The notes beneath the pieces were generated by a model. The model did no database searches. It had not been told where the DNA came from and worked only from the letters and a program-made list of their open reading frames with translations. This document shows positions 32,616 through 41,968 of a stretch of 64,000 nucleotides of DNA, piece by piece. The translations under genes were made by a program, and so were the position numbers. Numbering within the stretch: the stretch's first letter is position 1; every line of letters begins with the position of its first letter. The stretch spans positions 1,674,001 to 1,738,000 of the forward strand of contig NZ_LR797830.1 in assembly GCF_903064525.1 (NCBI RefSeq), in the 5' to 3' direction. The DNA comes from Methylacidimicrobium sp. AP8 (GTDB lineage: Bacteria > Verrucomicrobiota > Verrucomicrobiia > Methylacidiphilales > Methylacidiphilaceae).

Positions 32616-32987
32616 ATGAAGAAAAACTTCGGGGATCACTCGGCGAACGAACGCACGTTTCTGGCCTGGGTGCGCACGAGCATCGGGCTGATGGCATTCG
32701 GCTTCCTGCTCGAGAAGTTCACCCTCTTCCTCAACTATCTGCGCCTCGCGCTCAACCAGCCGCCGACCCAAGAGCCGGCTACCCGGGTGATCGGACTCGC
32801 TTTCCTGACCCTCGGCGCCGTCATGATCGGGATGGCGGCCCTCCGATACCGGCTCAACGCCCGGCAGATCGACAGCCCGGAATTGGAAAGAAACAGCTTC
32901 GTTCTCTTCGACACGATCCTCGGCGCTTGCCTGGCCGGCGCCGGCATCCTCCTCGGCCTCTACTTGGCCCTCGGGATCGCCCTCTAG
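32616..32987 (+). CDS. DUF202 (YidH-like) small membrane protein
   Basis: 123 residues from the ATG at 32616; an in-frame ATG at 32589 would add nine residues. The DUF202 start ANERTFLAWVRTSIGLMAFG is followed by two more hydrophobic helices (VIGLAFLTLGAVMIGMAALR, CLAGAGILLGLYLALGIAL). Function of the family is unknown. Its TAG stop lies in the 4-bp target duplication of the adjacent hairpin element, so the insertion landed exactly at the end of the gene. Confidence 0.85.
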   Translation: MKKNFGDHSANERTFLAWVRTSIGLMAFGFLLEKFTLFLNYLRLALNQPPTQEPATRVIGLAFLTLGAVMIGMAALRYRLNARQIDSPELERNSFVLFDTILGACLAGAGILLGLYLALGIAL

Positions 32988-33165
32988 CGGCCATTTCTCA
33001 CAAATTTCGTAGCCGAGGCGCCGCAAATGGGCTTGGGTGCAAGGCGGGCGCAGGTTTTCCACCGGAGCTGTATGAAGACATACTGCGAGGATGGAAAACC
33101 AAGCGGGAGCGAAGCAGACGAGCCCGTTTTGCAAGCCGTAGGAGAAAGCTTGTGAGAAATGGCCG
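32988..33165. mobile_element. 178-bp MITE-like hairpin element with CTAG target duplication
   Basis: The ends are perfect 16-bp inverted repeats (CGGCCATTTCTCACAA at 32988-33003 and its complement at 33150-33165). CTAG flanks both sides (32984-32987, 33166-33169). Inside, further pairs are nested: GGTTTTCCA (33053-33061) with TGGAAAACC (33092-33100), and a perfect tip GTATG-AAGA-CATAC (33070-33083) exactly at the centre. The whole unit can fold into one long hairpin. The end matches the IS1380-type element at 38304 in 13 of 14 bases, and both have 4-bp duplications. No coding capacity. I infer a non-autonomous element moved by a related transposase. Confidence 0.8.
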
Positions 33166-33179
33166 CTAGCGCCGCCGCC

Positions 33180-35354
33180 TTATTCTTCCCGGCGCGTCAG
33201 AAGCAGTCCGCCGTATCGATCCACGTGCGCCTTCCAAGAAGGAGGGACGACCGTGGTCCCGCTATATTCCAGGATGACCGCCGGTCCTTCGATCCGGTTT
33301 CCGGGACGGAGCCGCTCCCTCCGGTAAAAGCGTGTCGGAACGACACGCCCCCCGAACCAGACAGGGGCCTCGTACAACAGGCTATCCTTGCCGGGCTCGG
33401 GACCCGTTTCCTCCTCCGGGACAAGGACGGGCTTCCGGGGCATGCCCCGAGCCTGCACCCGCAGCGCGACGATCTCCGTCTTTCTGCCCCAATCGGCATA
33501 ACCGAACCGGAGCTCATGCAACCGGTGAAACTGCCCGGCATATTCCTCGGAATACGGGACCATCAGCTCATGCCCTTGGCCCGCGTAGCGCATGTCGACG
33601 AAAAAGGAGAGAGCGCGTTCACGCCGGCCAAACCCCTCGGCATCCAACTCTTCCTCCGCCCGGCCCGCCAGCCGGCCGAAGATCCTCCGCAGATCCTCTT
33701 CGTCGGCCCGCTCCTGGGGACAGAGCAGGGTCTCGACATACTCCTTCACAAAATCCGAGAAGAGGCCGCCAAGCGCGGAGAAAAGTCCCGGATTCCGCGG
33801 GACGAGGGCCTGCGGGATTTCCAAAGCTTCCGCCAGATCGCAGGCGTGCAAGCCGCCGGCCCCCCCATAGGCCAGAAGGCTGAAATCGCGCGGATCCCGC
33901 CCGCTCTCCGTAGCAACGAGCTGGATAGCGCGAGCCATCCGGACATTGATCACATCGAGGATCCCTTGAGCCAGCCGCTCCACCGGGTGATCCTCTTCGG
34001 ACGACGCACTCCAGCGCGGCGCCATCCGATCCCGCCAGAACCGAGCGAAGAATTCCCTGGCCCGGTCGGCATCCAGGGGCATCTCTCCGCCCAGCAGGCC
34101 GGCGGATCCCAACCGTCCGAGGCAAAGGTGCGCATCGGTCACGGTGATCTCTTCCCCTCGGCCATAGCAGACCGGACCGGGATCCGCACCCGCGCTTTCG
34201 GGACCTACCCGGAGGGCCCCGCCAGCGTCGACGCGGGCGATCGAGCCTCCCCCCGCCGCGACCGTCTGAATGGGAAGCAGCGGACTCCCGATCGGGTATC
34301 CGCCGACGCTGCCGCCGCGCTCGGGGAGCGGATCCTCCCCGGCGAGGCAGACATCGGTCGAAGTGCCGCCCATGTCGAAAGCGATGATATGCGGGAAACC
34401 GACCAGGCGTCCCCAAGCGGCGGCTGCGACCGCCCCGGCCGCCGGCCCCGAAAGCAGCGTCTCGATGGGCCGCTCCCCTGCACCCCGCGCTGAAAGCGCA
34501 CCGCCGTTCGAGCGCATCACCCAGAGGGAAGTCGACCTAGGCGTACCGTCCGCTCCTCTCGTCGCCATCCAGTCTACCCCTTCTTCGGCGCGGCCCAGGT
34601 AGCGGCGCAGCACGGGAGCGATGTAGGCATTGAGGACGGTCGTCGACATCCGCTCGTATTCGCGGTGTTCCGGAAGCACATGGGCGGAGAGGGAAATGGG
34701 CAGCTCCAGATGCCGGAGCAGCTTCCCCGTCTCCTCTTCATGGCGAGGATTGGCAAACGAAAAGAGGTAGACGACTGCGACGCTTTCCACCCCCGCATCC
34801 CGCAGGGTTTTCCCGATCGCCGAAACGGCCGAGCCGTCGAGCGGGCGAAGAATCTCGCCCCGGGGCCCCACCCGCTCGGGGACGCCAAAGCGCCTTTCGG
34901 CCGGGACGAGAGGGGCGGGCTTGGACGGGCCCAGGTCATAGAGCTTCGGCCGGTTCTGCCTCCCGATCTCGAGCAGATCCTCGAAGCCCTCGGTCGTCAG
35001 CAGAGCGGTGCACGCCCCTTTCCGTTCCAGGACCGCGTTGGTGCCGACCGTCGTCCCATGAATGATCTCGATCCGGTCGGGATTTTTGTTTTCCAACAGG
35101 CGGCGAATCCCCTCCAAAAGAGCGGTTTCGGGAGCGTGGGGCGTCGAAGGGAGCTTCCAGCAAAGCAGCCGCCCTTCCCAAAGCGCGATGCAGTCAGTGA
35201 AGGTCCCTCCGGTATCCACGGCGATCCGGATCAGGGATCTTCCCGAGTCCTCTGGCGCCGCTCCCGAAGCCCCTTTCTCCAGGAGGGCGTCACCGCGCCG
35301 CGCTTCCTCCGGAAACCCCGGAGGCTGCTCGGCGCTTCCGCTAGATTTTGCCAT
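33180..35354 (-). CDS. hyuA: Hydantoinase/oxoprolinase A-subunit family protein
   Basis: 724 residues. N-terminal hydantoinase A segment IRIAVDTGGTFTDCIALWEG with ATP-binding DTGGTFTD, then IEIIHGTTVGTNAVLERKG. The central domain carries VMRSNGGALSARG, ETLLSGPAAGAVAAA and FDMGGTSTDVCLAG, followed by the C-terminal domain with VDMRYAGQGHELMVPY. Family members hydrolyse N-methylhydantoin, 5-oxoproline or carboxylate acetone/acetophenone, normally with a HyuB partner. No hyuB is adjacent, so the substrate is open. It is divergent from the fused-kinase gene with only 54 bases between starts. Confidence 0.85.
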   Translation of the reverse strand: MAKSSGSAEQPPGFPEEARRGDALLEKGASGAAPEDSGRSLIRIAVDTGGTFTDCIALWEGRLLCWKLPSTPHAPETALLEGIRRLLENKNPDRIEIIHGTTVGTNAVLERKGACTALLTTEGFEDLLEIGRQNRPKLYDLGPSKPAPLVPAERRFGVPERVGPRGEILRPLDGSAVSAIGKTLRDAGVESVAVVYLFSFANPRHEEETGKLLRHLELPISLSAHVLPEHREYERMSTTVLNAYIAPVLRRYLGRAEEGVDWMATRGADGTPRSTSLWVMRSNGGALSARGAGERPIETLLSGPAAGAVAAAAWGRLVGFPHIIAFDMGGTSTDVCLAGEDPLPERGGSVGGYPIGSPLLPIQTVAAGGGSIARVDAGGALRVGPESAGADPGPVCYGRGEEITVTDAHLCLGRLGSAGLLGGEMPLDADRAREFFARFWRDRMAPRWSASSEEDHPVERLAQGILDVINVRMARAIQLVATESGRDPRDFSLLAYGGAGGLHACDLAEALEIPQALVPRNPGLFSALGGLFSDFVKEYVETLLCPQERADEEDLRRIFGRLAGRAEEELDAEGFGRRERALSFFVDMRYAGQGHELMVPYSEEYAGQFHRLHELRFGYADWGRKTEIVALRVQARGMPRKPVLVPEEETGPEPGKDSLLYEAPVWFGGRVVPTRFYRRERLRPGNRIEGPAVILEYSGTTVVPPSWKAHVDRYGGLLLTRREE

Positions 35355-37929: not shown

Positions 37930-38300
37930 TCGCCTCCGGGCATCCATGCCGCTTTCCGCTTGTCCTTGAGGCGGCAACTTTCGCCGGCGATCCGGACGAT
38001 ATGGGCATGGTGCAGCAGCCGATCGAGCACGGCCGCCGGCCCCACTGGACTGTCGGGTCGGCCGCCGAGAGGAAGCGCCTCTTGGGTCTTGCCCGCCCCG
38101 CCGGGACCGGGCAAGGGGAGGTTTTCGGCGCGCCCGATCAAGGCCAGGTTCGCCGACTCGAGGATTCGGGGCCTCGGGCGCCCCTCCGGCATGGTTCCAG
38201 TCGAAGTCCTCGACCGTTTGGATCGCCGGCGGCAGGATCCGGCACAAGACCGGAAGCCGCCGTGCGCGCGGCCGGCGGCCTGAGGACGCTTCCTTGGAGA
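37930..38300 (-). pseudogene. Relic of an IS21-type helper ATPase (IstB)
   Basis: Three IstB landmarks appear in order on the minus strand but in more than one frame. They are AIQTVEDFDWNH near 38225, ENLPLPGPGGAGKTQEALPLG (Walker A) near 38065-38125, and PAVLDRLLHHAHIVRIAGE followed by RLKDKRKA near 37940-38010. About 120 residues between Walker A and the C-terminal part are missing, including Walker B. IstB acts with the IstA transposase; no istA was recognised. The IS1380-type element is inserted at the start of this relic, so the IS21-type element arrived earlier. Confidence 0.65.
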
Positions 38301-38303
38301 TAG

Positions 38304-40017
38304 CCGCCATTTCTCACCAGTACGAGCTTTCGGGCGAGAGAGGTGCCGGTTGAGTCGCTTGCGAGCAGTTCCGCCCGCGCAGAGCTCTTCGTGAGGCGGG
38401 ATCGAGCAAGATTTTCATTCGATTTGCCTTAACGCGAGCACTGCAAAGCGCAAAAAGCCGGTTGTGGAGCAAGGCTCCGCCTGGTCGTAGGCTTTGCCGA
38501 AGGAACAGATCTGCGGTTTTGGCAGATGCTCAGCAACGCAGCACTCGGAAGACGTGGGTAAAGAGGCTCTTCCAAGGATAGGCGCTGCTCATCGAGAGGA
38601 AGACGCGGCGGACGCTGACGCGGACCAGCGTGCCGATCTTAAAGAGCTTGATCCGAAGGGTGGGTGTCGACCTGGGCCTCGGCCCAGTCCGTTCCTCGCA
38701 GACCGAGCCGTCGCAGCGCTTCCACCAGGGTGTAAGCGAGAGCCGAGAAGTAGAGGCGAAGTTGGTTGCTGGCCATTTGCGCGGTCGAGAGCCGGTCGGC
38801 AAAGAGGTAGAGTTGTTCCTTAATCCGATTCTCCATGTCGCCACGAGCACAGTAGAGCTTCTCGTAAAGGTTTTGGGCGGGCCACTCCTCGGTGGAGAGA
38901 GAGGTCACGACAAAGCGCGGATTCTCCCCTCTTTCCAGGTACTCGGCTTTGGCGACCACCCGGCGCTCCCTCGACCAGCTGCTCAAGGTGCGGTAGGCAA
39001 ACTCGGTAAAGAAGCGGGCCGGCTTGCCACTCGACTCGTGCAGACGACGGGCTTGCTCCATCGACCCCTGAATGGTCCGGCACAAGCGCTCGTTGCGGGC
39101 CAAGCCGAAGAGGTAGTCGACTTGATTGGCTTCGCACCAAGCCATGATCTCTTCCCGGCAGAAGCCCGAATCGGCCCGGAGCACGATCCGGACTCCGGGC
39201 CAACGGGTACGGAGTTGTTCCACGATCCGGCTCACCTCCGTAAGGGAGCCCGCCGACGCATCCTGGTTCGATGGCCGAAGCCGGACGCCAAGGAGTTGAT
39301 CGCCAGCAAAGATGTAGAGCGGCAAATAGCAGTAGGAGTCGTAGTAACCATGGAAGAAGCGCTCCGGCTGATGTCCGTAAAGGGGGATGTCGGTCGCATC
39401 CAGATCGAGCACCACCTCCTCAGGGGGCTGGGGATGCGATTGGAGGTAGAGATCGACCAGAAGACGGTCAATCGCTTCGGCCGAGTAGTCGATCTTGTGG
39501 TAGCGCTCGCTTCGACCCACCAGCTCCAGCCGGTTGAGCGTGCTCTTGCCCGCCAGATCCTCTTCCAGATCGCTTTTCCCGCTCAGGAGAGCAACCAACG
39601 GATCGGTCCGCAACTGCTCATGGTCGTCGAGGTCTTCGTAGCCCATCGCAATCCCGAAGATGCGCTGGGCAAGCATCTCCCGTACCCGATGCACAATGTG
39701 TTTCGGATGGCGTCGATCCACGAAGCAACCCTCTAACCGTCTTAACAAACCGATCTTCCGATCCGCTTCCCGCAACAGAATTGCGCCCCCATCGCTGGAG
39801 ATCCGACCCGCGGTAAATCCCGCTTCCACCCGTCGCGAAAAATGATCTGTAAACGCAAAAGTCTCTTGGCTACACTCTGTCATGGAAGGCCGTTTCTTTT
39901 TTCTGGTTGTAGTAACGTCTTCTTAACGCACTTATACCAGGGAAAGACGGCCTTTCCTATGCCCTTTTGTCGGCTTTTTTGCCCTCCGCTATGCCCGCTA
40001 TTGGTGAGATATGGCGG
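38304..40017 (-). mobile_element. Complete IS1380-type insertion sequence (1714 bp)
   Basis: The ends are inverted repeats: the first 19 bases from 38304 (CCGCCATTTCTCACCAGTA) match the complement read from 40017 (CCGCCATATCTCACCAATA) at 17 positions. ATAG is duplicated immediately outside (38300-38303 and 40018-40021). Length, a CC start, a 4-bp target duplication and a single DDE transposase fit the IS1380 family. It interrupts the IstB relic. Its transposase is frameshifted, so this copy is probably immobile by itself. Confidence 0.88.
38530..39883 (-). pseudogene. IS1380-family transposase, frameshifted near its C-terminus
   Basis: From ATG 39883 the frame gives 414 residues typical of the family (GAILLREADRKIGLLRRLEG, VLDLDATDIPLYGHQPERF, IVLRADSGFCREEIMAWCE, YCARGDMENRIKEQLYLFAD), ending early at 38639. 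The expected C-terminus continues in another frame (TLRIKLFKIGTLVRVSVRRV) to 38530. The cause is visible: a tandem duplication GGGTGGGT (38658-38665, plus strand). Removing one copy restores the reading exactly. The full protein would be about 450 residues. Confidence 0.88.
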
Positions 40018-40021
40018 ATAG

Positions 40022-40803: not shown

Positions 40804-41968
40804 TGTCGTAAGCAAGTGAAGTGACCGCCGCGAGAACAAGTGAAGTGACCGCTTGGGTATTGGGGGCTGGAGGGTCCATGAGATGGGGGCATGGACGGCT
40901 TTGGCGAAGCGGAAGGATGGCGAGTCAGGAAAGTTCAGGAGGTGATCATGCGGGCGATGGCCAAGCGGATCAGTTGGTTGGATGCGGCGGAGATTTTGGG
41001 ATGGAGTTCTCGGACCCTTCGGCGGTGGCGCGCTCGGTACCGGATTTGGGGATACGACGGGCTTTTTGATCGGAGGAAGCGGAGGCCGATGCGGGGGATG
41101 TTCTTGCATGTGGACGGGAGCACTCATGATTGGATTCCGGGGTTGGGATGGCAGCCGGATCTGATCGCCTTTGTGGACGATGCGACCAGCGAAGTCTACG
41201 AGGCCTTTTTGTGCGAGGAGGAAGGGACCAAAGCGATCCTTTCGGGCTTACGGAGCGTCATTGAGAAAGAGGGGCTTTTTTGCAGCCTCTACACCGACCG
41301 GGGCAGCCATTTTTTCCACACGCCCGAGGCGGGAAAAGGGGTAGACCGAGAGCAGTTGACGCAGGTCGGCCGGGCGCTGGCGCAGTTGGGCATCGAGCAC
41401 ATTCCCAGCTACTGTCCACAGGGCCGAGGACGGATGGAGCGCTTCTTCGGCACCTGGCAGGGGCGGTTGCCGCGGGAGATCCAGGCCGCGGGCATTCAGA
41501 CCCTGGAAGCGGCCAACGAGTACATCCGGAAGAAGTTTCTTCCCTGGCATAACCGCACCCTGGCCGTAAAGCCCAAGGAAGAGGAGAGCGCCTTTATCCC
41601 GGCCGGAGGAGCCGACCTGGATGGGATCCTCTGCGTTCAGGACGACCGAATCGTCGGCAACGACAACACGGTCCACTGGGGGCGGAAGAAGCTCCAGATC
41701 TTGCCCCAAAGCTGGCGCAGCGGCTTGGCCAAATGCCGGGTCCGGGTCTGTGAGCATCTCGACGGCAACCTCAGCGTCCGGTACGGCCACCGGATCGTCG
41801 GCTGGTAGGACTCGGAGGGCAAGCCGCTGGAGCTACACCAAACCAAGGCGGCTTAAGAAGAGCAGAACTTTGCCCTTGGCCCGGGGCAAGGGCAAGAACC
41901 CCAAAGGAAAGAACAATCCAATACCCCGAGCGGTCAGATCACTTGTTACCAAAGCGGTCAGTTTGACA
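40804..41968 (+). mobile_element. Decayed ISNCY-type insertion sequence
   Basis: Inverted ends flank a transposase gene. AACAAGTGAAGTGACCGC from 40835 matches the complement read leftward from about 41946 (AACAAGTGATCTGACCGC), and the similarity goes on to GGGTATTGG. Each end has a second copy of the GTGACCGC-type motif further out (near 40812 and 41956), as expected for multiple transposase-binding sites. Outer limits are set where both ends read TGTC. No clear target duplication. The element is about 1.17 kb, shorter than intact relatives because of an internal deletion in the transposase gene. Confidence 0.7.
40891..41856 (+). pseudogene. ISNCY-family transposase with internal deletion and premature stop
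   Basis: The N-terminal helix-turn-helix (WLDAAEILGWSSRTLRRW, GYDGLFDRRKRRP) runs straight into the DDE domain (MRGMFLHVDGSTHDW, YTDRGSHFFHTPEAGKG, SYCPQGRGRMERFFGTWQGR). Intact relatives have, from memory, about 75 residues between DRRK and the RKRRP before the first catalytic Asp, so a block was lost in frame between similar basic motifs. A TAG at 41806-41808 follows IVGW; the frame then continues DSEGKPLELHQTKAA to a TAA at 41856, matching family C-termini. Confidence 0.75.

Follow-up and report, generated by a model that had tools for sequence, protein, structure and literature searches.

A 178-bp hairpin unit of Methylacidimicrobium is very probably a MITE moved in trans by a resident IS1380-family transposase

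The DNA examined in this study, referred to as the window, is a stretch of 64,000 nucleotides from the complete 2.30 Mb genome of Methylacidimicrobium sp. AP8. It contains a DUF202 gene (32616..32987, + strand; PF02656, E 2e-19) that terminates with TAG at 32985-32987, and a convergent hydantoinase/oxoprolinase gene (33180..35354, - strand; PF01968, PF05378, PF19278). A 178-bp unit lies between them (32988..33165, + strand). Its left terminal inverted repeat (TIR), CGGCCATTTCTCACAA (32988..33003, + strand), and its right TIR (33150..33165, - strand) were 100% complementary over 16 bp when compared, or over 20 bp if the palindromic CTAG at either end is counted. Reading of the flanks placed the left CTAG at 32984..32987, where it includes the DUF202 stop codon, the target site of the unit, and the right CTAG at 33166..33169, with the hydantoinase gene end 10 bp past it at 33180. 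An exactly central hairpin with 22-nt arms and an AAGA loop (33053..33100) was identified by folding and a repeat check. Its GTATG-AAGA-CATAC tip occupies 33070-33083, and the centre of the tip, 33076.5, is the exact midpoint of the unit. An earlier note on this DNA had described the perfect 16-bp TIRs, the central tip, the flanking CTAGs and an insertion on the DUF202 stop codon between convergent genes, and the coordinates, complementarity and gene assignments confirmed each of these features.

The 178-bp unit is small (<600 bp) and non-coding, as is typical of MITEs, and indels distinguish its copies. Inspection of its six frames by eye revealed no transposase or other recognisable protein. 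The RNA fold of 32984-33169 had a predicted energy of -101.7 kcal/mol, compared with -59.5 +/- 4.1 for shuffled sequences (z -10.4). Because CTAG is palindromic, the window copy alone cannot separate a 4-bp target duplication from a 20-bp inverted repeat, and the remaining copies in the genome were needed for this distinction.

A first DNA search with the unit yielded 71 candidates, 40 of which were scored as near-full. DNA search, end-pattern search and flank reading together identified about 45 near-full copies and six fragments, the number of diverged copies being a lower bound. The earlier note regarded the unit as mobile, which a single copy would have spoken against; the genome search gave a multi-copy family. 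Nine copies are identical, most others are 97-99% alike, and the near-full copies are oriented almost equally in both directions (23 +, 22 -). From their sequences, the copies look like the product of a recent burst of transposition. Three solo left ends were also found at unrelated places, 891939(-), 351364(+) and 272038(-). All three are broken at base 35-37, close to an internal loop of the hairpin, and no right end was seen within the several kb that were read. Separately, copies 855508 and 1543589 have >100 bp of flanking sequence in common, so the two are embedded in, or carried by, a further repeat family. The flanks of 2197873 and 1324499 contain a repeat, 120 bp or longer and starting GTGTTGGGGTTCGCATGATTACC, that has many copies at about 90% identity or more in the related genomes G003 and G006.

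An exact 4-bp duplication flanks 34/45 copies. The duplicated sequences are CTAG (20), TTAA (6), CTAA (3), TTAG (2), TCAA (1), TTCA (1) and ATAG (1). When left and right flanks were paired at random, the mean was 13.7 matches and the maximum 23, and 0/20,000 trials reached 34. The matching 4 bp that the earlier note had seen around one unit are thus repeated across the family, far above the shuffled mean. The non-palindromic duplications (CTAA, TTAG, TCAA, TTCA and ATAG) settle that these are direct duplications. The consensus is YTAR, with Y in 33/34, T in 33/34, A in 33/34 and R in 34/34 sites, and no obvious sequence preference was noted outside YTAR around the 34 duplicated sites.

To find empty sites, element-free joined flanks were sought in relatives and the junctions were then read base by base. 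In G003 and G002 the gene end that corresponds to copy 533727 has just one CTAG, an empty site. Copy 975431 (L240) interrupts an SBF-family transporter gene, which resembles that of an ACR3-type arsenite pump and is uninterrupted in five relatives. Spanning matches were also obtained for 1559189, 1624470, 864510, 845647 and 1207285, some with junctions of lower quality. Empty sites, which the earlier note had named as a mark of mobility, were therefore present at several positions. The window site is not the best example of one, since in most other relatives a longer distance separates the DUF202 and hydantoinase genes, or they lie on different contigs; in relative G004 the DUF202 gene ends TAG, and about 110 bp of different sequence come after it.

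The 11/45 near-full copies without an exact duplication were counted against the transposition model. Seven of these were compared with relatives. The flanks of 424654 are 6.5 kb apart in relatives and those of 1291344 are 65-80 kb apart, which suggests rearrangements at these two MITEs. Copies 1106161 and 1864170 are colinear in relatives, and at least two of the remaining copies are confounded by adjoining mobile DNA. Recombination was rejected as the cause of the mismatched duplications across the seven copies compared.

An imperfect palindrome frequently found at gene ends might also be a REP/BIME-type element, moved on single strands by a tyrosine (RAYT/IS200-like) transposase. REPs are shorter and lack a target duplication. 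We regard this identity as extremely improbable for the 178-bp unit; the clear 4-bp duplications refute it, and the ends match those of an IS with a DDE transposase.

This IS lies within the window. The IS1380-family element (38304..40017, - strand) is 1714 bp long, has the TIRs CCGCCATTTCTCACC and CCGCCATATCTCACC, and is flanked by ATAG on the left (38300..38303) and on the right (40018..40021), as read from its ends and flanks. It carries a gene for a DDE transposase of 414 aa (38639..39883, - strand) that scored 453 bits against PF13701 (E 1e-135) and 369 bits against NF033539 (E 2.7e-110; cut-off 180). The predicted structure of the transposase had a pLDDT of 45, a confidence too low for a fold search. 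An ISNCY-family transposase gene (model NF033594) was also noted at 40891-41808. The genome has about ten near-full copies of the IS1380-type element as well as further fragments, and several copies keep a full-length uninterrupted transposase frame. Duplications among the IS copies are ATAG/ATAG, CTAG/CTAG, TTAA/TTAA and TTAG/TTAG, and these, together with the short TIRs, fit the IS1380 family, whose members duplicate 4-5 bp.

The MITE end CGGCCATTTCTCAC and the IS end CCGCCATTTCTCAC at 38304 differ by one mismatch in 14, as the alignment confirmed for a comparison already made in the earlier note. Diverged MITE copies (915761, 469827 and 358414) and most subfamily-A copies in G006 and G003 have CCGCC ends identical to the IS. 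IS copies in other Methylacidimicrobium species start YTAR|CCGCCATTTCTCAC and have ends YTAR|CCGCCATTTCTCACSA. At 328381, 469827 and 1939216 a MITE and an IS lie exactly one 4-bp CTAG apart, and this adjoining across one CTAG indicates that both use the same target. Base 2 of the MITE end is consistently unlike that of the IS (CGG vs CCS) and the sequences diverge past base 14, so simple internal deletion of the IS now present does not account for the MITE.

The same consistent difference at position 2, with the divergence after base 14, would also be expected if the true driver were a lost or diverged IS1380-type element with exact CGGCCATTTCTCACAA ends and the resident IS were only its cousin. 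M. tartarophylax points the same way: its subfamily B has matched ends, CCTGCATGTCTCAC, for which six related genomes yielded no IS. However, the resident IS copies are themselves not uniform at bases 2-3 (CCG, CCC and, in the copies 508093 and 1825831, GGC/GCG), and some MITE copies are intermediate, with CCG ends. We consider a lost driver a possible but less probable explanation than mobilisation by the resident IS.

The distribution of the MITE was examined in other genomes. The unit is present on two contigs of M. tartarophylax 4A, and older copies or fragments occur in six related Methylacidimicrobium genomes. None was found in six genomes of the same family or 47 genomes of the same order outside the genus, none in plasmids, and none in viral contigs by an exact 24-base pattern search. 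Within the genomes searched the MITE was found only in the genus Methylacidimicrobium. The second subfamily (B) occurs in G006 and G003, where its ends are changed in step at both sides of the element; loci in G006 include L187, L182, L190 and others.

The position of the MITE relative to genes was then considered together with its fold. 15/45 copies are on a stop codon (15/40 where compared with window sites) and 15/39 classified intergenic copies are between convergent genes, while in the window 15/49 YTAR sites outside genes are on stops and 8/54 gene pairs are convergent; all these counts are rough because they rely on a simple home-made codon-usage gene caller that mis-assigned some genes, including the strand of the hydantoinase gene. 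YTAR contains TAG or TAA, and stop-codon landings are therefore expected from the target motif. Special targeting to stop codons was rejected, as the window baseline is close to the observed fraction. The excess of convergent pairs may reflect selection against harmful insertions.

These positions and the very stable fold would also suit a regulatory hairpin, such as a bidirectional terminator or a stabiliser of mRNA 3' ends, that was kept by selection and spread through its usefulness. Pairing in the hairpin is kept in 94% of cells. Changes on both sides occur at 16 pairs, and in many copies at four that lie within the hairpin but outside the 16-bp TIR. Much of this double-sided change separates two old subfamilies, however, and one-sided changes are divided almost evenly between G-U (41 pair types) and A-C (31 pair types), so selection on the RNA strand is not demonstrated. 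RNA-level selection was rejected as the reading of the double-sided changes, which are at most weak evidence of an RNA-level constraint. A G+C-rich stem followed by a T run, as in a T-tract intrinsic terminator, was absent from both strands of the element, and the hairpin matched no Rfam family. The side suggestion in the earlier note that the hairpin might act as a bidirectional 3' end thus gained no support. Given the precise duplications and the empty sites, which show insertion, and a stop-codon frequency that makes extra targeting unnecessary, we think it improbable that a regulatory role explains the family.

Ends and a target in common with a resident IS are taken to mean that a MITE is mobilised in trans. 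The 178-bp unit is very probably such a MITE, moved by the resident IS1380-family transposase, and we infer from sequence that this transposase is the trans-acting enzyme. The driver proposed in the earlier note is thus supported by the copies, the target duplications, the empty sites, and the agreement between unit and IS in their ends and 4-bp target. In the proposed mechanism the MITE, which itself codes for nothing, would be recognised at its ends, (C)SGCCATTTCTCAC, by the resident transposase, which would cut it out or copy it. The MITE would then be joined to a 4-bp YTAR target, mostly CTAG and then TTAA, and the target would be duplicated upon repair. As YTAR has TAG or TAA, stop codons would be frequent landing sites, and the gene upstream would stay intact after insertion, as the DUF202 gene has.

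The MITE resembles bacterial MITEs with a parent IS (RUP, Correia/NEMIS and MITEAba12) in being small, non-coding and hairpin-forming, in its many near-identical copies, and in having a target duplication and TIRs in common with an IS. Among reviewed bacterial MITEs, TA terminal motifs and A+T-rich sequence predominate (PMC2229807), while the Methylacidimicrobium MITE is G+C-rich, duplicates a 4-bp YTAR target and has ends of the IS1380 type. The IS at 38304 is like other members of the IS1380 family (IS1380, IS1247 and ISEcp1) in its NF033539/PF13701 DDE transposase and short TIRs. IS1247 has inverted repeats of 16/13 and a 5-bp direct repeat (PMC3281130), in contrast to the 4-bp, palindrome-like YTAR duplication seen here, and the MITE differs further from these ISs in lacking a transposase gene. 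In TMos of Paracoccus a single IS1380-family copy and adjacent DNA were moved (PMC3281130). Both cases involve IS1380-type enzymes moving DNA beyond the IS alone, but TMos comprise an IS plus flanking DNA and the MITE consists solely of its ends and a hairpin.

Excision of piggyBac is seamless. By analogy, the IS1380-type enzyme of this genus could be a bacterial counterpart of piggyBac, with palindromic YTAR (CTAG/TTAA) targets, hairpin intermediates and footprint-free excision, a proposal that we consider speculative and rather unlikely. IS1380 transposases serve as the prokaryotic outgroup of piggyBac (PMC10140906, PMC10813416), and the piggyBac target is a 4-bp TTAA, rarely TTAG, CTAA or TCAA (PMC10813416). 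The MITE targets TTAA, TTAG, CTAA and TCAA resemble this set, but the main MITE target, CTAG, differs. If the proposal were true, the MITEs would be reversible insertions, often harmless on stop codons.

In the literature searched, which included scant coverage of subscription journals, no MITE family was assigned to an IS1380-type driver and no MITEs were described in verrucomicrobial methanotrophs. The present family therefore appears to be a MITE whose IS family is identified and which is itself undescribed in that literature. With roughly 45 insertions, and relatives that lack the element at several of those sites, the family forms a clean natural collection in which the YTAR rule and harmless residence on stop codons would be easy to test, and the insertions can serve as markers for strain comparison.
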